From Leptolyngbya sp. SIOISBB (GTDB lineage Bacteria; Cyanobacteriota; Cyanobacteriia; Phormidesmidales; Phormidesmidaceae): a stretch of DNA of 64,000 nt. The position numbers and the translations under genes were made by a program. The notes beneath the pieces were generated by a model that ran no database searches, was not told where the DNA came from, and saw nothing but the letters and a program-made list of their open reading frames with translations. This document shows positions 37,037 to 63,363 of the stretch, piece by piece (position 1 is the stretch's first letter; the number at the start of each line of letters is the position of its first letter). Where the stretch lies: positions 930,001 to 994,000 of the forward strand of contig JAAHII010000001.1 of the NCBI GenBank assembly GCA_010671905.1. The letters run 5' to 3'.

Positions 37037-40000
37037 ATGAGCAAGCGTCAACGTGGTGTGGTCTTGACCGAGTACGGTCTGGAGCGATTAGAGGCCGCGA
37101 TCGCGGCAGCCCAAAACCAGGAAAAATATGGCAAGCGCTTTACTCAGGCAGAGTTGTCGGAACGTGCCAACCTCAGCATTAGAACCATCAAGAAGATTCG
37201 CCAGGGTACCGCTCCTGTTGATCAGCCTTCGGTCAAGGCGCTGTTTATCGCGTTCGGCCTGGAACTGGAGTCGGCTGATTATGGACAGCCTGAACCAGCG
37301 CCCCAAGAATCGGAACCTCAACTGGCAAAAACAGATCAGCGGGTTGCGACCAAAATTGACTGGGGTGAAAAGCCCGACACGACGATTTTCTTTGGCCGCG
37401 CTGAGGAGTTAGCGACGCTCAGCGACTGGGTGATGGCAGAGCAGTGTCGCGTGGTGACGTTGCTCGGCATGGGGGGCATTGGCAAAACCTCGCTGGCAGC
37501 CAAACTGGCGGATCAGATTTACGACCAGTTTGATTACGTGATCTGGCGCAGTCTGCGGGAAGCGCCGCCGCTAGAGGAAATTTTGGTGCGGCTGATTCAG
37601 TTCCTTTCGGATCAGCAAGAAACGGAAATCAACTTGCCCAACCGCTTGGGCGAACGCCTCATTCGCCTGTTGCATTACTTGCGGGAGCACCGTTGCTTGC
37701 TGGTGCTGGATAACCTGGAGTCAATTTTACAGGCAGAATCGACGGGGCAATTCCGCGATGGCTATGAAGGCTATGGCGAACTGATTCAGCACATCGGCAG
37801 TACAGAACATCAAAGTTGCCTGGTGCTCACCAGTCGGGAATGTCCCCGTGAACTTGCGCCGATGGCGGGCGATCGCCTACCCGTACGCCTCTGGTCAGTC
37901 ACCGGCATCGACCCTGCCGCCGGACGAGAGATCTTGCAAACCAAGGGGCTGGAACTCGACGAGGCCAATCCCCAAAGTCAGGAACTGATCGATCGCTACA
38001 GCGGTAATCCCCAGGCGCTCCATCTCGTTGCCACGGCGATTCAGCGAGAGTTTTTGGGCGATGTCGATGACTTTTTGGAGGAGGAAGGGGCAGCTGTTGA
38101 GGATGTCCGCACCCTGCTTGATCAGCATCTCACTCGCCTTGCGCCATTGGAGCGATCCATACTGTTCTGGCTCGCCATCAACCGCGAACCTGTGGGACTG
38201 GATGAGCTAATGGAAGACCTGCTACCGCCTGTGACGAAGCGAGAAGTTCGAAGTGCGTTGAGGGGGGTTGAGCGATCGCTACCTGATTGAGACGGTCGGC
38301 AAACAGTTCACCCTGCAAAAACGTGATCATGGAATTTGCCAGCGATCGCTTTGTCGCAAAAGCGAGACAGGAGCTCAAAACACAGCAGTTTGAAATTCTT
38401 CATACCCACGCCGTCATGAAAGCCTCTTCCAAGAATCATGTGCGTGAAACACAAGTACGCCTCATCCTACAGCCAATAACTGCCGCGACTGATAACTTAG
38501 GACGCGCTGTCGAAGAAGCATTGAAAATAATTCATCGACAGACAATCTGGTATCAAGGGTATGTCGCTGGAAACCTATTGAACTTTTTGTGCCAGTTGCA
38601 ATTGGCCCACCGAACATTTGATTTTTCAGGTTTGACATTGAGACAAGCCTCTTTAAGTGGTGTAGAGCTACACCACTTAAATCTAGTTGGTAGTCATTGG
38701 ATTCAGCCCGACTTAACGCATCTGTTTGGGGTGATCAATGTCCTTGCGTACAGTCCGGATGGACGGTGGCTAGCAAGTGGGAGTAACGATTGCACCATTC
38801 GGCTGTGGCAGGCCGACACAGCTGAATGTAAGCAAATGCTCCTCGGGCATACCATGTGGATTAGAGAGCTCGTCTTCAGCCCCAACGGTCAATGGTTAGC
38901 CAGTAGTAGCAGTGATGGAAAAATTCGGCTGTGGCAACTCAGTCAAGGGGAATGGACCTGTAAACATATTCTGGCAGGGCACACCAAGTGGGTCAGGTCA
39001 GTTGCGTTTAGCCCTGATGGTCAATGGTTGGCCAGTGGCAGTGGGGATACCACTATTCGAATCTGGCAAGTCATTACTGGGGAATGCAAACGAGTTCTTT
39101 CAGAACATGCTGATTGGGTGAGGTCGGTTACTTTTAGTCCTGACGGCCAATGGTTGGCCAGTGGCAGTGGTGATACCACTATGCGAGTCTGGCAAGTCAG
39201 CACTGGGGAATGCAAACGGGTTCTTACTGGACACCAAAAATGGGTTAAGACAGTCGTATTTAGCAGGGATGGTAAATATCTAGCAAGTGGTAGCGGGGAT
39301 GGAACGATTCGCCTCTGGCAAGTCGACACCGGGCAATGTAGACATGTTTTGACCGAGCACAAGGACTTTGTCAGTTCACTCGTTTTCAGTCCAGACGGTC
39401 AATGGTTAGCGAGTAGCAGTGGAGATAAAACCGTTCGACTATGGCAGGTCAGCACCGGAACTTGTCAACATACGTTGATTGGTCATACCAACCGGGTTAA
39501 GACGGTCATTTTTAGCCCAGACGGTCAATGGCTGGCAAGTGGTGGAGCAGATCCTACAGCTCGGCTCTGGGAAGTTAGTAGCGGGGAATGCAAACATACG
39601 TTGATTGGTCATACCAACAGAGTCTTAGCAGTTGTTTTTAGTCCCGATAGTCGATGGCTGGCAAGTGGCAGTAGTGATGCGACGTTAAGACTCTGGCAAA
39701 TCAGCACCGGAGAATGCCGACATGTTTTCAAAGGTCACGTCAATCGGGTTAATTCAGTCACCTTCAGTCCAGACGGCCAAGGGTTAGTGAGTGGCAGCGG
39801 GGATGCCATCATTCGCCTATGGGACGTTACAACTGGGAAGTGTCTGCAAACCTTGACGGGCCACACTGATTTCATTAGTTCAGTTGCTTTGACCTCTGAT
39901 GGTCAGTGGCTAGCGAGTGGTAGTGGAGATGCCATGATCCGCCTATGGGACGTTAAGACTGGGAAGTGTCTACAAACCTTGACGGGCCACACTGATTCCC

Positions 40001-40747
40001 CTCGACTCAGTTGTGTTTAGTCCGGATGATCAATGGCTGGCTAGTGCTAGTGATGATCACACCCTCCGCCTATGGCAAGTTGGTACTGGAGAGTGTTTTC
40101 AGACTTGGACCGATCACACTGACTGGGTAAGGTCGGTCAGCTTTAGTCCAGATGGTCGGTGGTTAGCAAGTTGCAGTGAAGATAATACAATTCGCCTGTG
40201 GCAAGTTGGGACGCAGGAATGCTGTGCAGTCTTGAGGGGACACACCAACGGTGTTAAGTCGGTAGCTTTTAGTCCGGATGGCAGATGGCTGGCCAGTAGT
40301 AGCGAAGATAAAACCATTAGGCTTTGGCAAGCTCATAGCGGGGAATGTCAACTAACCTTAAAGGGACATGAGAATCTAATTATTGCCGTCGTTTTTAGCC
40401 CAGATGGTGAATTGTTAGCCAGTGCTAGTGACACTACCATTCGGCTATGGCACTTCCGCACAGGAACTTGTCAAAAAGTGTTGGTCGAACATACTGATTT
40501 TGTTAGAACTTTAGCCTTTAGCCCCAATGGACAATACTTGGCGAGTGGTAGCAGTGATGACACCGTCCGTCTATGGAATGTCAATACCGGCAATTGCTTG
40601 AAGGTGTTACCGATATCTCGCCCTTACCAAGGTAGCGATATTACAGGTGCTCAAGGATTATCTCCAGTACAGCGAGCCTCTCTTTTGGCTCTGGGAGCGG
40701 TTGACCATACTTATACAAACCATATAGACCCGCCGCGATTCCATTAG
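37037..40747 (+). pseudogene. STAND (NB-ARC) ATPase with WD40 repeats, frameshifted
   Basis: If repaired, one protein of about 1236 residues. An N-terminal helix-turn-helix-like domain (about 20-85) comes first. The NB-ARC ATPase follows, with 'FFGRAEEL', P-loop 'GMGGIGKTS' and Walker B 'CLLVLDN'. A winged-helix/linker region comes next, and then 15 WD40 repeats and a short tail ('SDITGAQGLSP'). The frame is broken by one extra base in each of three homopolymers: G6 (38262-38267), A5 (38317-38321) and C4 (39998-40001). Deleting these gives 'ALRGLSDRYLIETVG', 'FTLQNVIMEFASDRF' and 'GHTDSLDSVVFSP', all as in intact relatives. STAND proteins act as sensors in signalling, defence or cell death; the ligand here is unknown. 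Confidence 0.87.
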
Positions 40748-56686: not shown

Positions 56687-56689
56687 TAG

Positions 56690-56698
56690 CTCCTAACC
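56690..56698 (+). repeat. left target-site duplication of the IS
   Basis: CTCCTAACC immediately before the left inverted repeat. The identical 9 bases follow the right inverted repeat at 57860-57868. Confidence 0.8.
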
Positions 56699-57859
56699 CC
56701 AGGGCTGATTCAATGTGATGAGATAAAAATTAAGCTGTAAGGCACCCGTATCGTTGATGTTGCGATGAACCTTATAGAAGCCCTACAGACCGTCCCTGAC
56801 TATCGTCATGCTCGTGGGAAACGCCATCCGCTGTGGATCATTTTGGTGTTCATTGTGATGGGAAATTTAGCGGGTTATCGAGGGAATCGCCCCCTAGAGG
56901 AGTTTGCGCAACGCTACGGTTCCGAGGTAGCTGACTTATTGCAGATTGACCTTGACGCGGTACCGTCCTTTTCGACCTTCCGGCGAGCCCATATCGGGCT
57001 TGACTTTGCCGCGCTCAGCGACGCCTTTGTTCAATGGATGCGCCAGTATCTCACGGTAGACGAGGATGTATATGCCATTGACGGGAAGCGGATTCGACAA
57101 CCCATCACCGACGATGACGGCAAAACGCGCTTTGTCGGACTCGTCAGTGTCTTTGCTCAAGCCCAAGGGATCACCGTCGATTTAGCCGCGCTGACCCCCC
57201 ACCGACAATAGCGAGTTGAAGGTTGTGCAGTATCTGTTAGAGAAACTCCACTTGAGCGGAGTGGCTTTTCAGCCTGGATGCGCTTCACGCGCAAAAAAAA
57301 CACTGTCGCTCATTGTTGAGGGGGGCAATGACTATGTGGTGGCGGTTAAAGAGAATCAGGGGAAGCTGTATCGTCAGATCGAGACGATCATTCGTTATCG
57401 CCAACCGCGACAAACCGCTTCAACCCCCTTCGAATGCCACCATGGCCGTCAAGAACAGCGGCGGGTCAGCGTGTATTCTGCCCAAGGGATTGACCCTCAA
57501 CGCTGGCAGGGGACGAAAACCATCCTCTGTGTTGAACGACGGCGCTGTACGCCAGACAAATGTTCCATTCATCGAGCCTACTATCTCAGCTCTCTAGCGA
57601 CCACGGCAAGACTCTGGAACAATATGGTGCGAGGGCATTGGAGCATTGAAAATCAATTGCATTGGCCGAAAGATGTCGTCCTTCATGAAGATGAAACGTA
57701 TGGCCGAAACCCGAACGCTTTGCTCAATGCCTCTCTGTTTCGTTCCATTACTATCAATTTGCTCCGACTGAATGGGTTTAAGTCGGTTACTTCCGCTCTA
57801 CGAGAGCTCGCCAACCAGGTTGAGAGGATTTTTCGTCTCCTACAATGAATCAACCCTGG
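56699..57859 (+). mobile_element. ISAs1-family insertion sequence
   Basis: A complete element of 1161 bp. Inverted termini are at 56699-56716 (CCAGGGCTGATTCAATGT) and 57842-57859 (reverse complement CCAGGGTTGATTCATTGT), differing at two positions. The direct repeat CTCCTAACC on both sides is a 9-bp target duplication, in the usual size range for this family. It carries a single transposase gene, broken in this sequence. It separates the histidine kinase region from the phycobilisome cluster. Confidence 0.85.
56765..57848 (+). pseudogene. ISAs1-family transposase, frameshifted
   Basis: A DDE transposase of about 360 residues. The N-terminal domain is typical ('VPDYRHARGKRHPLWIILVF'), followed by 'IDGKRIRQP' with the first catalytic Asp. 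The frame is lost at C6 (57195-57200); removing one C gives 'LTPTDNSELKVVQYLLEKL'. A second local disturbance lies between T4 (57266-57269) and A8 (57293-57300); taking one T and two A away restores 'FSLDALHAQKTLSL', with the second Asp. The C-terminal part retains 'RGHWSIENQLHW' with the Glu. All catalytic residues can thus be recovered, so either these are overcalls or the copy has died recently. Confidence 0.85.
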
Positions 57860-57868
57860 CTCCTAACC
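57860..57868 (+). repeat. right target-site duplication of the IS
   Basis: CTCCTAACC directly after the right inverted repeat, identical to 56690-56698. Confidence 0.8.
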
Positions 57869-57917
57869 CAAACTGGAGGAGTTCTCAAACACCTTTTCAG
57901 ATCTACCTTAAGGCATT

Positions 57918-58046
57918 CTAAAAACGTAGCAATGTCGCTAAGAACAGTATCAGGATAAAGGCTGTACCACTGAAGAATAAACCCACCCAAGCCTTTTCTA
58001 GAGCCTTAGGGGGTTGCTTTTGCCATTCCCAACGGACAGACGACAT
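57918..58046 (-). CDS. 42-codon membrane-anchor ORF, likely the C-terminus of CpcL
   Basis: It begins with ATG one base after the stop of the upstream linker gene (TGA-A-ATG) and encodes 'MSSVRWEWQKQPPKALEKAW' followed by a strongly hydrophobic helix ('FFSGTAFILILFLATLL') and RF. CpcL-type rod linkers are known to end in such a hydrophobic anchor, and the linker gene here stops without one. Removing one base (for example from the GGG at 58051-58053 on the plus strand) fuses the two as 'FYRPEMSSVRW', giving a protein of about 249 residues, the length expected for CpcL. As written, it is a separate +1-frame ORF positioned for stop-start reinitiation. Confidence 0.65.
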   Translation of the reverse strand: MSSVRWEWQKQPPKALEKAWVGLFFSGTAFILILFLATLLRF

Positions 58047-58047
58047 T

Positions 58048-58668
58048 TCAGGGCCGGTAAAATCCTTTGCCTCTTAGAGCTTGTAGATTGGGCTCAGGGA
58101 GCTGATCGCGATAGTCGGTACCATAGCGAGCCATGTGAGCGAACGAAATCTCCCCTGCGGCTCGTTGCGGCAAAATTCGCCGCCGCTGGTAGGGAACGGT
58201 CGTTTCACCAAAGTTCTCCAAATACTCTTCACTATCGAGCAAAGCATCGACAAAGGCGTTCAACCCCTCCTGTCCGAGGATAATCGACCAAGCTAACTTC
58301 TCGCGATCGCTGTAAACATTGCGGCCTAGAACTCGCTGCACGCAAATTTCAACAAAGCGATAGTTATTGTTGCTCTCGTAGACAAAGCGACGGAAAGAAT
58401 CGGACAAAACTAAGCCGCGAATAAATTCTTTGGCCGTAATTTGCCCTGCTTTTAACTGAGATTCCAAAAAAGGTTGTCGATTGCTTTTGAGCATCTGTTG
58501 CTCATTATAAATCTGGCGATAGGCAGCCATAATCAACCCATCGAACTCAGATTCAGACAGAAGATTGTCTGTCGTGAAAATTCTAGACTGTTCATCTCCC
58601 GGAACTTCGAAGCCAGACACTCTTTGGTTCTGGGAAGAAGGAGCATACTCCAACAAGTTAATCGTCAT
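58048..58668 (-). CDS. cpcL: CpcG/CpcL-type phycobilisome rod linker (linker domain)
   Basis: 206 residues as written. It has the conserved start 'LLEYAPSSQNQRVSGFEVPG', the linker-domain core 'AAYRQIYNEQQMLKSNRQ', 'EFIRGLVLSDSFRR', 'NNYRFVEICVQRVLGR' and the end of the domain 'TVPYQRRRILPQR'. These linkers join phycocyanin rods to the core (CpcG) or, in the CpcL form, to the membrane and photosystem I. The anchor expected for CpcL follows immediately in the +1 frame at 57918-58046, so I favour CpcL. AGGAGG precedes the ATG. It lies downstream of cpeR in the same orientation, 170 bases away, probably with its own promoter. Confidence 0.8.
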   Translation of the reverse strand: MTINLLEYAPSSQNQRVSGFEVPGDEQSRIFTTDNLLSESEFDGLIMAAYRQIYNEQQMLKSNRQPFLESQLKAGQITAKEFIRGLVLSDSFRRFVYESNNNYRFVEICVQRVLGRNVYSDREKLAWSIILGQEGLNAFVDALLDSEEYLENFGETTVPYQRRRILPQRAAGEISFAHMARYGTDYRDQLPEPNLQALRGKGFYRP

Positions 58669-58838: not shown

Positions 58839-59204
58839 TCAGAGAGCGCAATCAAATCGAGTCCTAAAGCTGCCATATTTAATCCAATATTGTTTAAGTT
58901 TATGCCCCGGTGTTAGTAAACTGGCTTTAACTCGGTAAAGGACGACTTGGCGATGATTACCCATCCAGACCTTATCCACTGGATCAACTGAAATAACCGC
59001 TCCACCCAAGGTAGAGATACAGTCTGAAAACCGCTCAATCGTGCCATAATCTACCGTCTCAAACACGAAGAAATTACCTGAACAGATAAGATGACGACTA
59101 CGGATCCAGCCTTGAATCTTTTTCTGTGCTTCTGGAGGGAGCATAGTCGACGAGGAGACATCTAGAGTACTTGCAACTTCTTTATTGAGTGATGATGATT
59201 TCAT
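58839..59204 (-). CDS. cpeR: CpeR-like phycoerythrin operon regulator
   Basis: A small protein whose core 'GWIRSRHLICSGNFFVFETV' followed by 'DYGTIERFSDCISTLGG' and 'VWMGNHRQVVLYRVKASL' matches CpeR. In Fremyella CpeR is required for expression of the phycoerythrin genes. Two starts are possible: ATG at 59204 (overlapping the end of cpeT) or ATG at 59144 ('MLPPEAQKKIQGW'), which fits the length of known CpeR (about 100 residues) better. Neither has a strong ribosome-binding site. Its place at the end of cpeCDEST supports the assignment. Confidence 0.75.
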   Translation of the reverse strand: MKSSSLNKEVASTLDVSSSTMLPPEAQKKIQGWIRSRHLICSGNFFVFETVDYGTIERFSDCISTLGGAVISVDPVDKVWMGNHRQVVLYRVKASLLTPGHKLKQYWIKYGSFRTRFDCAL

Positions 59205-59812
59205 GGGCAAAGCTTTCCCGCTTTTCAAATTTCAGAGAACCATGTTCAGATCCCCAAACTTGCTCGTTGGTATTGACATCTAGCCCCTTATCAAGGCTAG
59301 CCCAAGTGAATTCCGTAATCTCGACATCGCTAACCAAATATGTCTGGCAGCCATTTTTCTTGATAAGACATTGGTTGCCAGGTTCAACCTGCCCAACAAA
59401 CTTATCAGCCTGTCGTTTAAAGACCATTGAACAGTGTTGTCGTCGTCGAATACAGTCTGGGGTAATCGTCTTCAAGATGTCTGGCTCACGAGCGGCTCCC
59501 CGCATAGAGAAAAGGATCGATCAGACCATAATTCTCGATATAAATTTGTCCTCCCTGATCAGTCAAACGATGAACACCTTGACGATAAGGAGTCCATAAA
59601 TCATAGTCATAAACCTGCTCTGAATAGAATCCAATATCAGAGAAAAAGTCAAAGGCCAAAGGCCGAAAAAATACATGGATATGAGCATATTCTCGGGGAT
59701 TTTCAGACGCTTGTTTATAGTTGCTGAAATCACCTGCCATCCAGCGAGCTAGGGTCACTAAATCAGTGGAATAGCGTTCTGATAGAGGTTGAGAAGAGGA
59801 GGAAGTTACCAT
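59182..59812 (-). pseudogene. cpeT: CpeT phycoerythrobilin lyase, frameshifted
   Basis: A CpcT/CpeT-family chromophore lyase of about 209 residues if repaired; CpeT has been assigned to attachment of phycoerythrobilin at beta-Cys165. The N-terminal part ('LARWMAGDFSNYKQASENP', 'IHVFFRPLAFDFF', 'SEQVYDYDLWTPYRQGVHR') is in one frame up to TGA. The rest ('AREPDILKTITPDC', 'CSMVFKRQ', 'EPGNQCLIKKNGCQTYLVSD') is in the next. Removing one base from the run of four at 59498-59501 gives 'FLYAGAAREPDILK', the family sequence. A start at the ATG at 59812 fits relatives. It follows cpeS by 23 bases. Confidence 0.85.
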
Positions 59813-59835
59813 ATCCAAAACTAATTGGTTATCCC

Positions 59836-60363
59836 CTATGACTGTCGAATTTCTGAGGAAAACGAAGCGGTGACCACCCCTGTCCCAGCACTCGTTTTAA
59901 TGAGTGACACGCGACAGCGAACGTTGGGGTTGACAAACCAGATTTTTTCTTCGGCAGCGGCGCGATCGTAACTTGTCGTCAAGACAAAGGTGCCATCTTC
60001 CATCAGTCGGTAGTCACCTGCCGCCGCCATCGTTTCGGCATATCCTTGCTCACGCAATAATTTGCCGCAGTTCAATTGGGTTGAGTTTGGCACCGGCACC
60101 AGCACAGACGAGCCCTTCAGCACCTCTTCACCATCATCCCAATCCGACTCTCCTTCCCAAGTCATCTTAAAGGGGGAAACAATTTGCTGGGGCTCAACCC
60201 CGTATGCCTTACAAAGCTCAATCACCGATGCATCTTCAGGAGAAATTGCTTCGATATCAATAACTGACTGAACCGCTTCAAAATGGCTGAACGCCAAGTG
60301 ATGAGCGCTCCTCTGAGAGCGCCACTGACCAATGGACTGTGCAACAAACTCCTGGATATCCAT
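59836..60363 (-). CDS. cpeS: CpeS phycobiliprotein lyase
   Basis: 175 residues of the CpcS/CpeS lipocalin-like lyase family, which attaches phycoerythrobilin to Cys82-type sites of phycoerythrin. The N-terminus 'IGQWRSQRSAHHLAFSHFEA' is the family hallmark, with 'SPFKMTWEGESDWDDGEE' and 'YRLMEDGTFVLTTSYDRAAA' and the later 'EKIWFVNPNVRCR'. The ATG at 60363 is used, not the TTG at 60366. It lies between the linkers and cpeT, as in the cpeCDESTR operons of Fremyella. Confidence 0.88.
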   Translation of the reverse strand: MDIQEFVAQSIGQWRSQRSAHHLAFSHFEAVQSVIDIEAISPEDASVIELCKAYGVEPQQIVSPFKMTWEGESDWDDGEEVLKGSSVLVPVPNSTQLNCGKLLREQGYAETMAAAGDYRLMEDGTFVLTTSYDRAAAEEKIWFVNPNVRCRVSLIKTSAGTGVVTASFSSEIRQS

Positions 60364-60707
60364 CAAAACTGCATCTTTGTTAGAGAGTTAGAAACAGAGA
60401 TTTTGGGGAGAGGTACTGAGACATCTTGAGCATGGGCTTCAAGTATGTCTCAGCTAACTTGTAAGCATCATCATGAGTTTGATGACTCACTGATAATAGT
60501 TACTCGACCTTACCTAACTCCTTTAACCACTACGTACACCTCGCACACTTTATTACGGCTGGTTGTAATGACGTCTTGATGGAAGCATTCCATCATGTTG
60601 ACAGCAATTATTCCATCATCTTCAGTGCGAGGTTCAGTAGCCGCAGCAGCATTATTACTGCTCATATGAGGTCATCGTCAACATTCAACAATACTGCTTA
60701 ACAACTT
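60364..60707 (-). promoter_or_regulatory. cpeE-cpeS spacer with structured leader
   Basis: An unusually long 344-base gap inside the operon. Besides the hairpin at the cpeE stop, it has a perfect 8-bp stem TGATGGAA/TTCCATCA (60577-60595) with a 3-base loop. A further copy of TTCCATCAT lies about 30 bases away, at about 60609. It may carry a second promoter or a processed leader for cpeSTR. Confidence 0.45.
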
Positions 60708-60716
60708 TTAAGCAGT
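60693..60716 (-). terminator. hairpin at the end of cpeE
   Basis: ACTGCTTAA and TTAAGCAGT pair perfectly over 9 bases with a 6-base loop. The cpeE stop codon lies in the stem. It could be a partial terminator or a stability element between cpeCDE and cpeSTR. Confidence 0.55.
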
Positions 60717-61475
60717 GGCGACTTCGGCAATTTTGAGAATCTTGCCGCCGGTCTTTTGGATGTTTTGAATCTTTTTAGAGAGCTGGGCATAACCGACCTC
60801 AAAGGTATGATTACTTTGAGTGACCCGAGGCCCATAAGTAACTTTGGCAACTGTAATCCGGAAGCGCTTACCCGTACTGCTAGTGGCTCCACTGCCCCGT
60901 GCCGGATTGACAATTTTGGTGCCTCGATTACCCGCCACATCACTGATCAAGCTAGCTGATTCACCTGTATCACTGGTAGCATCACCCCGGAACAGCGAAA
61001 AAGTCCGGTTGAAACCGACGTTTTTGACGCCTGTTTGAGTTTTGTTCCCGCGCACAGAGGGGACCAAATTTTCCCCAAAGTTAGCGTCGTATTCACCGTT
61101 GTCGAGATAGGAATTAATTTCTGCTGCGTAGCCTTGCTCATTATAGAGAACGACATGCTCAGCGATTTCTTCTTGGTCTTGAGGAGCACGACCAAGAAGG
61201 TGCTTAAAGTTTAACTCCACAAAGCGATAAGGAGAAGACGTTTCAAAGAACAGGGAGCGATATGCATCAGACTGAGCGATCGCTCTCACAAACCCTTTGA
61301 CCGTAATATTGCCATCACGCAACAGAGATTCAGCCGTCGTCAACCGCTGGGATTCCATCAGGTGAGCATTGCCAAAAACTTGCTTATAGGTAGCCCGAAT
61401 AACTAATTGCAGCTCATCTTCAGTAAAGTTGGGACGGAGTTCTAAAACATCTGTATCTTCTAACCAGAGGGCCAT
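60708..61475 (-). CDS. cpeE: phycoerythrin rod linker CpeE
   Basis: 255 residues. The linker domain (about 15-150: 'IRATYKQVFGNAHLMESQRL', 'VRAIAQSDAYR', 'YRFVELNFKHLLGRAPQDQE') is followed by a C-terminal CpcD-like domain (about 195-252, 'KRFRITVAKV' to 'GGKILKIAEVA'). These proteins stack phycoerythrin hexamers in the rod and tune energy flow. AAGGAGA lies eight bases before the ATG. It is third in the cpeCDE order; the D/E distinction is by order and likeness, not by decisive residues. Confidence 0.8.
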   Translation of the reverse strand: MALWLEDTDVLELRPNFTEDELQLVIRATYKQVFGNAHLMESQRLTTAESLLRDGNITVKGFVRAIAQSDAYRSLFFETSSPYRFVELNFKHLLGRAPQDQEEIAEHVVLYNEQGYAAEINSYLDNGEYDANFGENLVPSVRGNKTQTGVKNVGFNRTFSLFRGDATSDTGESASLISDVAGNRGTKIVNPARGSGATSSTGKRFRITVAKVTYGPRVTQSNHTFEVGYAQLSKKIQNIQKTGGKILKIAEVATA

Positions 61476-61571
61476 AATTACGGTCTCCTTTTTATTGACA
61501 AATAAAGGTCTAAAGCCGATCGCTTTAGCAAATTTTCAGCAAGCAGATTTTCAAAAAAGTTATTTCAAAAA

Positions 61572-61598
61572 GCCTGATGGCAAACCACCACCAGGCTT
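61572..61598 (-). terminator. hairpin with T-run between cpeD and cpeE
   Basis: On the minus strand AGCCTG pairs with CAGGCT, extended inward by TGG/CCA after one mismatch, and is followed by five T. This is a normal intrinsic-terminator form and lies inside the operon, 97 bases before cpeE. Confidence 0.65.
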
Positions 61599-61606
61599 AA
61601 CCATGA

Positions 61607-62341
61607 CTAGACGATTTCAGTGATACTGACAATCTTGGCTCCAGTCTTATTGATCCGCTTGATTTGGGGAGTCATCTTGCTCGCCGACACGATGTACTCA
61701 TTCGTGCTGATCCGGCGAGGCGCATCAAATTTAGCCCCCGTGGTCAAAATCTTGAAGCGCTTCTCAGTGCCAGAACCGACGACCGTCGCCTTGGAAGGCT
61801 TAATGGCCGTCGCCAAGTTGCCCCCGAGGTCACCCACCAGTTGCGAAGCTTTGACACTGCTATCAACCTGCGCTGGGCCCCGATTGAGGGCAAAGATGCG
61901 GTTGTATCCCACCTGCTTGGAATTGGCCGCACTGCTTGCGCCCCGATAATAAGGAACAACGTTCTCCCCAAACGCCGCCAGATACTCATCGCTATCGATA
62001 TAAGAGTCAATCTCAGCGTCGTATCCCTCTGCCACACAGCACACAATATGTTCAGAGATTTCCCGCTGATCTTGAGGTGCTCGGCCTAGTAGGTGCAGGA
62101 AGTTGAGTTCAACAAACCGATAGGGAGCGCAAGACTCAAAGTAGCGAGTCCGGTAAAAATCAGACTTGGCAACGGCTCGCACAAACTCACGCACAGAGAT
62201 GGAGCGATCGCATAACTGCGATTCAGCAGCGGTTAGACGCTCACTATCCATGACATGGGGATTACCCAAAACCTGCTTATAAACCGCTCGAATAGCGATT
62301 TGCATTTCTTCCAAACTACTGGTGGGCCATAGCTCAAGCAT
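61607..62341 (-). CDS. cpeD: phycoerythrin rod linker CpeD
   Basis: About 244 residues. The linker domain ('IRAVYKQVLGNPHVMDSERL', 'EFVRAVAKSDFYRTRYFE', 'LNFLHLLGRAPQDQREI') is followed by a CpcD-like domain at the C-terminus ('KRFKILTTGA' to 'GAKIVSITEIV'). The ATG at 62341 is chosen; the frame is open further upstream, but that part includes the hairpin region and is unlike the family. AGGAG lies 12 bases before the ATG, slightly far. It is preceded by cpeC and a very strong hairpin. Confidence 0.8.
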   Translation of the reverse strand: MLELWPTSSLEEMQIAIRAVYKQVLGNPHVMDSERLTAAESQLCDRSISVREFVRAVAKSDFYRTRYFESCAPYRFVELNFLHLLGRAPQDQREISEHIVCCVAEGYDAEIDSYIDSDEYLAAFGENVVPYYRGASSAANSKQVGYNRIFALNRGPAQVDSSVKASQLVGDLGGNLATAIKPSKATVVGSGTEKRFKILTTGAKFDAPRRISTNEYIVSASKMTPQIKRINKTGAKIVSITEIV

Positions 62342-62448
62342 GGGACGCTCATCTCCTGAAGTTACTAAAAGAGTTAAAAACAAAACTGTGTGAGGACAAC
62401 CACAGGAGCAGCGCAAGGCACCGGTGGTCAACGAAAAACTTCCCCTAG

Positions 62449-62494
62449 CCCACCTTAGCCAGCAATAACTCACGCTTTTGCTGGCTAAGGTGGG
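62449..62494 (-). terminator. 15-bp hairpin between cpeC and cpeD
   Basis: CCCACCTTAGCCAGC and its exact inverse GCTGGCTAAGGTGGG with a 16-base loop, 9 bases after the cpeC stop. It is very stable; a weak T-tract (GTTTTTC) comes about 13 bases later. It could attenuate transcription or protect the cpeC message 3' end. Confidence 0.7.
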
Positions 62495-62502
62495 GAGGTA
62501 TC

Positions 62503-63363
62503 TTAGACGGCGGTAATACTCGCAATCACCCCACCTTGGCGATGAACGCGTTGGTAGGTCTCAGATAACTTGTCGAACGGCACCAAGTAAACCTGATTCG
62601 CCCGGCGGAATTGCGACACTTTTCTGGCCGTGTTAGCCCGATAACCGGTCACCTCAACCCGATAAACCTTGCCATCCGCTGTGGCACCAACGCCATGACG
62701 CTGACGGGCGGCGACGGGCGGATTCTGGAAGGTGGCGCCATCACTGGCCGGTGAAACAACGGGAGTCGGCGTACCTTGTATGACCAAGCTATTGAGCTTA
62801 GGTTGCTTGCCAGAGACATCGGCTTTCAGGCTACTGCTGGAAGCCCCACGCACCATTTGGAATAAATGAGTGAATTGCACCATGCTGTCGCAAGCTTCGG
62901 TTTTATATCCCCGAATATAGGGAACGAAGTTTTCTCCGAACGTGTTTTGATACTCATCACTATCAAGATAGGCGTCGATATCAGCCTCAAACCCCTCTGT
63001 ATCAAGAATCGTGCTGTGCATCCGCATCTCTTCTAAGTCGAGCGGTGTCCGACCTAGCAAATGCCGAAAGTTCAATTCAGTTGCTCGGTATCGAGGGCAG
63101 CTAGCAAAGAAGCGAGAGCGGTAGAGGTCTGATTTAGCGACTGCTCGAACAAACTCCCGAACGCTCAACTCGCCCAACTTAAACTGGGACTCAGGGAGCG
63201 CTAGGCGCTCACTTTCCATCACGTAGGCATTGCCTAAAACTTGACGGTAAACAGCACGGATATAGGCCTCAGCCTCTTCAGCAGAACGACCGGGCACCCA
63301 TTCCACGGGCGGAGTCTCATCAAATAGGCTGACTCCTAGTCTTGATGCGGGTCCAAAAGGCAT
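62503..63363 (-). CDS. cpeC: phycoerythrin rod linker CpeC
   Basis: 286 residues, close in length and sequence to known CpeC. It starts 'MPFGPASRLGVSLFDETPPV', then the linker domain ('IRAVYRQVLGNAYVMESERL', 'SVREFVRAVAKSDLYRSRFF', 'FRHLLGRTPLDLEEMR', 'GENFVPYIRGYKTE'), a Pro/Ser-rich joint, and a C-terminal CpcD domain ('YRVEVTGYRA' to 'GGVIASITAV'). CpeC links the proximal phycoerythrin hexamer to the phycocyanin rod. AGGAG is eight bases before the ATG. It is first in the operon, and 387 bases of noncoding sequence lie upstream. Confidence 0.92.
   Translation of the reverse strand: MPFGPASRLGVSLFDETPPVEWVPGRSAEEAEAYIRAVYRQVLGNAYVMESERLALPESQFKLGELSVREFVRAVAKSDLYRSRFFASCPRYRATELNFRHLLGRTPLDLEEMRMHSTILDTEGFEADIDAYLDSDEYQNTFGENFVPYIRGYKTEACDSMVQFTHLFQMVRGASSSSLKADVSGKQPKLNSLVIQGTPTPVVSPASDGATFQNPPVAARQRHGVGATADGKVYRVEVTGYRANTARKVSQFRRANQVYLVPFDKLSETYQRVHRQGGVIASITAV

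Follow-up and report, generated by a model that had tools for sequence, protein, structure and literature searches.

A cpcL gene split at a homopolymer in Leptolyngbya sp. SIOISBB is most likely an ordinary rod-membrane linker gene with one miscounted T

In a 64,000-nucleotide stretch of the genome of Leptolyngbya sp. SIOISBB (assembly GCA_010671905.1, contig JAAHII010000001.1, positions 930,001–994,000; hereafter the window, whose own numbering is used throughout), a phycobilisome linker of the CpcL type and a short hydrophobic protein are encoded in different reading frames, one base apart. Does this arrangement reflect a regulatory switch, the recent loss of a membrane anchor or an error in the assembly? 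As described in the initial annotation, a 206-codon linker frame (58048–58668, minus strand) ends in a stop codon without a C-terminal anchor, and a frame of 42 codons that encodes a membrane helix (57918–58046, minus strand) begins with an ATG located one base past that stop (TGA-A-ATG). The 206-residue protein carries a single linker domain on its N-terminal side, as CpcL proteins do (PF00427, PBS_linker_poly, residues 38–162, E-value of 1e-45 in Pfam). The 42-residue frame gave no match in a Pfam search and contains a hydrophobic helix (top 19-residue mean hydropathy of 2.32) that matches other CpcL anchors in hydrophobicity.

CpcL, known as CpcG2 in Synechocystis 6803 and as CpcG3 in Anabaena 7120, is the rod-membrane linker of core-less phycobilisomes. 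PMC10322944 describes it as the linker by which core-less rods are attached to the thylakoid membrane, reports that CpcL-phycobilisomes are associated with photosystem I and indicates that the CpcL-phycobilisome structure does not resolve the transmembrane region. A hydrophobic C-terminal helix is what sets CpcL apart from CpcG, according to PMC9415938 and PMC12461855. Among single-domain linkers of solved structure, the best match of the 206-residue protein was the CpcL chain 8hfq_n (residues 1–191), although the multi-domain CpcN and ApcE chains scored higher; the NCBIfam models for CpcG1–CpcG4 matched below their cut-offs, so that no curated model supports the name CpcL. The window linker thus resembles CpcL in its PF00427 domain, in its match to 8hfq_n and, if one extra T is disregarded (see below), in having a hydrophobic C-terminal helix, and differs from it in that the anchor, as assembled, is out of frame. 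It shares the PF00427 domain and the sub-threshold NCBIfam matches with CpcG rod-core linkers, but in CpcG-type relatives (loci L088, L090 and L091) the C-terminus is not hydrophobic, whereas a membrane helix follows in the window. The 206-residue frame ends before any hydrophilic C-terminal part of the kind seen in these three loci, and its hinge aligns with that of the anchor-bearing relatives.

The position of the break is best seen in comparison with the relatives. The same genome contains a second cpcL (locus L039, at G000:C1:2840536), which encodes 249 amino acids with the anchor in frame and is 80% identical to the window linker over residues 1–206. The frame also runs without interruption from linker to anchor in three genomes of the same genus or family (L010/L050, L011/L049 and L012) and in a metagenome bin (L054), so the comparison with related CpcL proteins that the initial annotation had called for gives a continuous frame in all five, the organism's own second copy included. 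In an alignment of the window with these five sequences, the stretch around the break reads GYTGPEMSA in the second copy, GFTGPAMSP in genomes G002 and G003, GFVGPTMSP in G021 and GYTGPKMSS in L054, that is, an uninterrupted G-[FY]-[TV]-G-P-x-M-S. The window DNA at the break is GGATTTTACCGGCCCTGAAATG. Dropping one T from the run TTTT at 58059–58062 (minus strand; AAAA on the plus strand) gives GGA TTT ACC GGC CCT GAA ATG, which encodes GFTGPEM (GFTGPEMSS) and restores the motif. This run is TTT in the orthologues from G002 and G003 (L011 and L012), TTC in G021 and TAT in the second copy.

The initial annotation was right that removal of a single base yields a continuous CpcL of 249 residues but placed that base in the run GGCCC. 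By inspection, deletion of a C there gives GFYRPEMSS, whereas the five aligned relatives have FTGPxM, YTGPxM or FVGPxM; they match the window with one T fewer and not with one C fewer, and the odd base therefore lies in the T run at 58059–58062. The junction peptide to be expected is accordingly FTGPEMSSV instead of the previously proposed FYRPEMSSV. With one T fewer, the C-terminal hydrophobic helix that is missing from the assembled linker frame is present, just as in the second copy and the aligned relatives. We consider it most likely that a single gene, cpcL, occupies 57918–58668 (minus strand) and consists of 249 codons and a stop, with 751 bases in the assembly because of one extra T; this view is based on the PF00427 domain and on the alignment with the second copy and the relatives. 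The 206-codon in-frame part would then correspond to the linker domain and the 42-codon frame to the C-terminal membrane anchor of the same protein. Judged by this alignment, the last three codons ahead of the stop (YRP) are out-of-frame noise, and the apparent start ATG of the small frame encodes the Met inside the motif G[FY][TV]GPxMS.

Comparison with the four nearest relatives revealed similar constraints on the two parts of the gene. In the 45 codons from GPEM onward, pN was 0.12–0.18 and pS was 0.62–0.73; the respective values for the linker part were 0.10–0.12 and 0.69–0.75. The match to the relatives from GPEM onward goes far beyond chance, and these ratios indicate that the anchor codons are still under purifying selection and that anchor and linker evolve alike. 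The frame was unbroken until very recently, or is so now.

Could the extra T be an artefact? The assembly itself offers a way to address this question. An insertion sequence (IS) encoding a DDE transposase (56700–57858, plus strand) lies next to cpcL, with 59 bases between its end and the stop of cpcL, and is flanked by an 11-base direct repeat, GCTCCTAACCC, at 56689–56699 and 57859–57869. As the IS end at 57858 and the direct repeat (to 57869) both lie outside cpcL, insertion of this element is rejected as the cause of the break. The genome carries 15 near-complete, nearly identical copies of this IS (the window copy and L129–L142), which has spread recently and is bordered by target repeats of ~10–11 bases. 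These copies differ almost exclusively in the length of homopolymers and so provide an internal gauge of assembly error. When the runs are collapsed, 14 of the 15 copies are identical and the fifteenth (L136) has one substitution; the 14 copies show 26 run-length differences and no other changes in 16,208 bp, and in 24 of these 26 cases the run is longer. With the most frequent length of each run as the reference, which is not a known truth, excess length was seen in 3 of 602 cells for runs of three and in 2 of 98 for runs of four; for runs of five, 6 of 70 cells were altered, and for the single run of six and the single run of seven, 7 of 14 each (L136, one of whose runs has an additional A, was left out of this count because of its substitution). 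The change proposed for cpcL, T3 to T4, occurs three times in the IS by the same yardstick; one of these cases is in the IS copy of the window, at a distance of ~0.8 kb from the T run of cpcL. A transposase frame of 368 residues, expected with suitable run lengths, is intact in none of the 15 copies in their assembled form (the longest has 348 residues); the window copy is itself broken in frame and has homopolymer differences from the others.

Other repeats behave similarly. In a second IS family with 11 copies, we found 19 indel cells versus 7 substitution cells, four of the latter occupying a single column next to an indel, which suggests a shifted alignment; L150 carries an insertion of two bases that is not in a homopolymer, and the uncut pairwise table lists 4 mismatches for L152 and 6 for L146. 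Two rRNA loci, aligned in two pieces over 3,322 positions, have no mismatches and 6 gaps, all of them in homopolymers. The genome also contains a third 16S rRNA (L162, G000:C1:6026667–6028193) that shares ~79% identity with the first across 1,325 aligned positions and lies in a locus of 43.5% GC, compared with 51.6% in the window; this is possibly foreign or misassembled DNA. The assembly miscounts homopolymers, although a small part of the IS and rRNA differences could be real.

Homopolish reportedly deals with gene-fragmenting homopolymer errors in long-read assemblies. That such indels break genes in long-read assemblies has been described (Kastor, PMC12007338). The pattern seen here is similar in that single-base indels in runs break genes and substitutions are few, with the type of error read from the repeat copies. 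It differs in direction: longer runs dominate in this genome, whereas the homopolymer-tied errors of the nanopore assembly covered in PMC12007338 are mainly deletions, which speaks against an error. So does the low rate for runs of three (3 of 602 cells): any such site, taken singly, is improbable as an error, and the case for an error draws on the large number of sites at which one can occur. If the rates seen in the IS are applied to the runs of cpcL, roughly one run-length error (1.07) would be expected in such a gene, half of it contributed by a single run of six bases. Two hallmarks of a homopolymer error are present: a break at a run where removal of one base restores a conserved motif, and identical repeats that differ in run lengths and hardly in substitutions.

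A similar break is found ~0.5 kb upstream of cpcL, in the same cluster. The gene for a CpeT/CpcT lyase (59182–59818, minus strand) is split into two frames that cover positions 1–88 and 87–181 of the PF06206 profile. The break falls at GGGG (59498–59501), 1.4 kb from the cpcL T run; by inspection, one G fewer rejoins the frames through YAGAAREPD, and both halves are in one frame in L039, L040 and L064. This split is probably a further run-length error. The cluster, all on the minus strand, consists of three rod linkers (60708–61475, 61607–62473 and 62503–63363; span 60708–63363), each with PF00427 and PF01383 domains, a CpeS-type bilin lyase (59836–60366), CpeT, a small conserved ORF (58839–59228) and, last, cpcL. 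The small ORF, which we take to be CpeR-like, is ~69–82% identical to its counterparts in L039, L040 and L064 and gave no match in Pfam and NCBIfam searches. These three loci have the same gene order as far as the stretches reach, with two extra linker-domain hits in one frame before cpcL; in L039 the two extra domains form an ORF of 560 residues.

The second copy of the rod-linker cluster (L039:5264–13283, G000:C1 at ~2.833–2.841 Mb) has unbroken cpeT and cpcL. The window CpeS finds a match there over its residues 124–170 only, and the cpeS gene of that cluster may be broken or degraded. Elsewhere in the genome (L156:3380–7527, G000:C1:2713670–2717217), five PF00427 domains are spread over two adjoining ORFs of 767 and 556 amino acids, perhaps a broken multi-domain linker, perhaps two genes. 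When Pfam was run on 20 selected frames of the window, the sole other case resembling a split gene was a pair of overlapping WD40-repeat frames (38287–40020 and 39983–40747, plus strand), which perhaps belong to one gene with a frame break, the repeats being a confounding factor.

In a scan of named genomes with the 206-residue protein, the best 80 of 89 relatives yielded 79 distinct loci; an anchor was scored as in frame at a 19-residue hydropathy of at least 1.6, and the 250 bases past the stop were checked for split anchors. In this set, the anchor is in frame in 49 of the 79 loci, including 33 of the first 34 listed (L049–L082), an order that follows similarity only roughly (the scores of L093 and L117 would place them earlier). 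The one exception among these 34 is L057 from Richelia intracellularis (contig CBZS010000829.1), in which the cpcL anchor is out of frame and broken by further stops; in this symbiont genome, the anchor of CpcL has probably truly decayed. Besides L057, the 30 loci without an in-frame anchor comprise L113 and L126, which have CpcG-type ends and some hydrophobic stretch within 250 bases past the stop; L097, which is cut by a contig end and was scored as anchor-less; and 26 loci with nothing of the kind. On inspection, most of the remaining anchor-less loci have a CpcG-type hydrophilic end. Two further loci are irregular: the frame of L098 runs on beyond the anchor, and the end of L116 is odd. 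None of the 79 loci, checked to 250 bases past the stop, presented a functional split cpcL, and this set does not show the conserved out-of-frame arrangement that a programmed frameshift or translational coupling would lead one to expect.

Taken together, the data are best explained by an ordinary cpcL gene with one T miscounted in sequencing, a reading to which we assign a probability of roughly 0.94. The suggestion of a homopolymer overcall made in the initial annotation is thus strongly supported by the repeat copies, the rRNA loci and the restored motif, with the correction that it concerns the T run and not the C run. We infer that the particular T at 58059–58062 is one of the run-length errors of the assembly. 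The gene in the cell would encode a 249-residue rod-membrane linker with one PF00427 domain and a C-terminal membrane helix; the assembly would have TTTT in place of TTT, putting the last ~45 codons out of frame and creating a false stop just ahead of the internal Met. The protein is most likely made in one piece and, by analogy with known CpcL proteins, would fasten core-less phycobilisome rods in the membrane close to photosystem I.

A real, recent frameshift is improbable. It would have left the window with a redundant cpcL copy without an anchor, either a 206-residue soluble linker or a pseudogene, while the L039 copy kept the function. As cpcL is present in two copies, such a loss would be tolerable, and the IS inserted just downstream of cpcL and the decayed, out-of-frame anchor of Richelia are likewise compatible with it. 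The event would, however, have to be very recent because the anchor shows no relaxation, and the many run-length differences among identical repeats, together with the homopolymer break of cpeT in the same cluster, argue against it. It is more doubtful still that a young frameshift in one of the two copies has given rise to a CpcL-type linker that is soluble for lack of its anchor, whether or not a separate 42-residue anchor is made by reinitiation, such that the two operon copies would yield both membrane-bound and free rods.

For the switch between core-bound and photosystem I-bound rods envisaged in the initial annotation, in which termination and reinitiation at TGA-A-ATG or frameshifting would yield a soluble linker and a separate or fused anchor, we found no positive evidence beyond the bare anatomy of a stop and an ATG one base apart, and it is extremely unlikely given that this ATG aligns with an internal Met of the fused protein in five close relatives, that, by inspection, the closest purine-rich stretch, AAGGA, stops 16 bases before it, too far for a usual ribosome-binding site, that no heptameric slippery motif was seen by inspection, that the T run is not conserved and, at four bases, is short for transcriptional slippage, which needs long runs, that the 79 loci surveyed revealed no functional split gene within 250 bases past the stop and that homopolymers are miscounted elsewhere in the assembly.

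The main message of this locus is one of caution: a frame break that falls in a homopolymer of this assembly carries little weight as biological evidence, and every gene that appears split in it needs accurate reads first. Should the break at 58059–58062 nevertheless prove real, one of the two rod-linker clusters of this organism would have lost its photosystem I anchor naturally.
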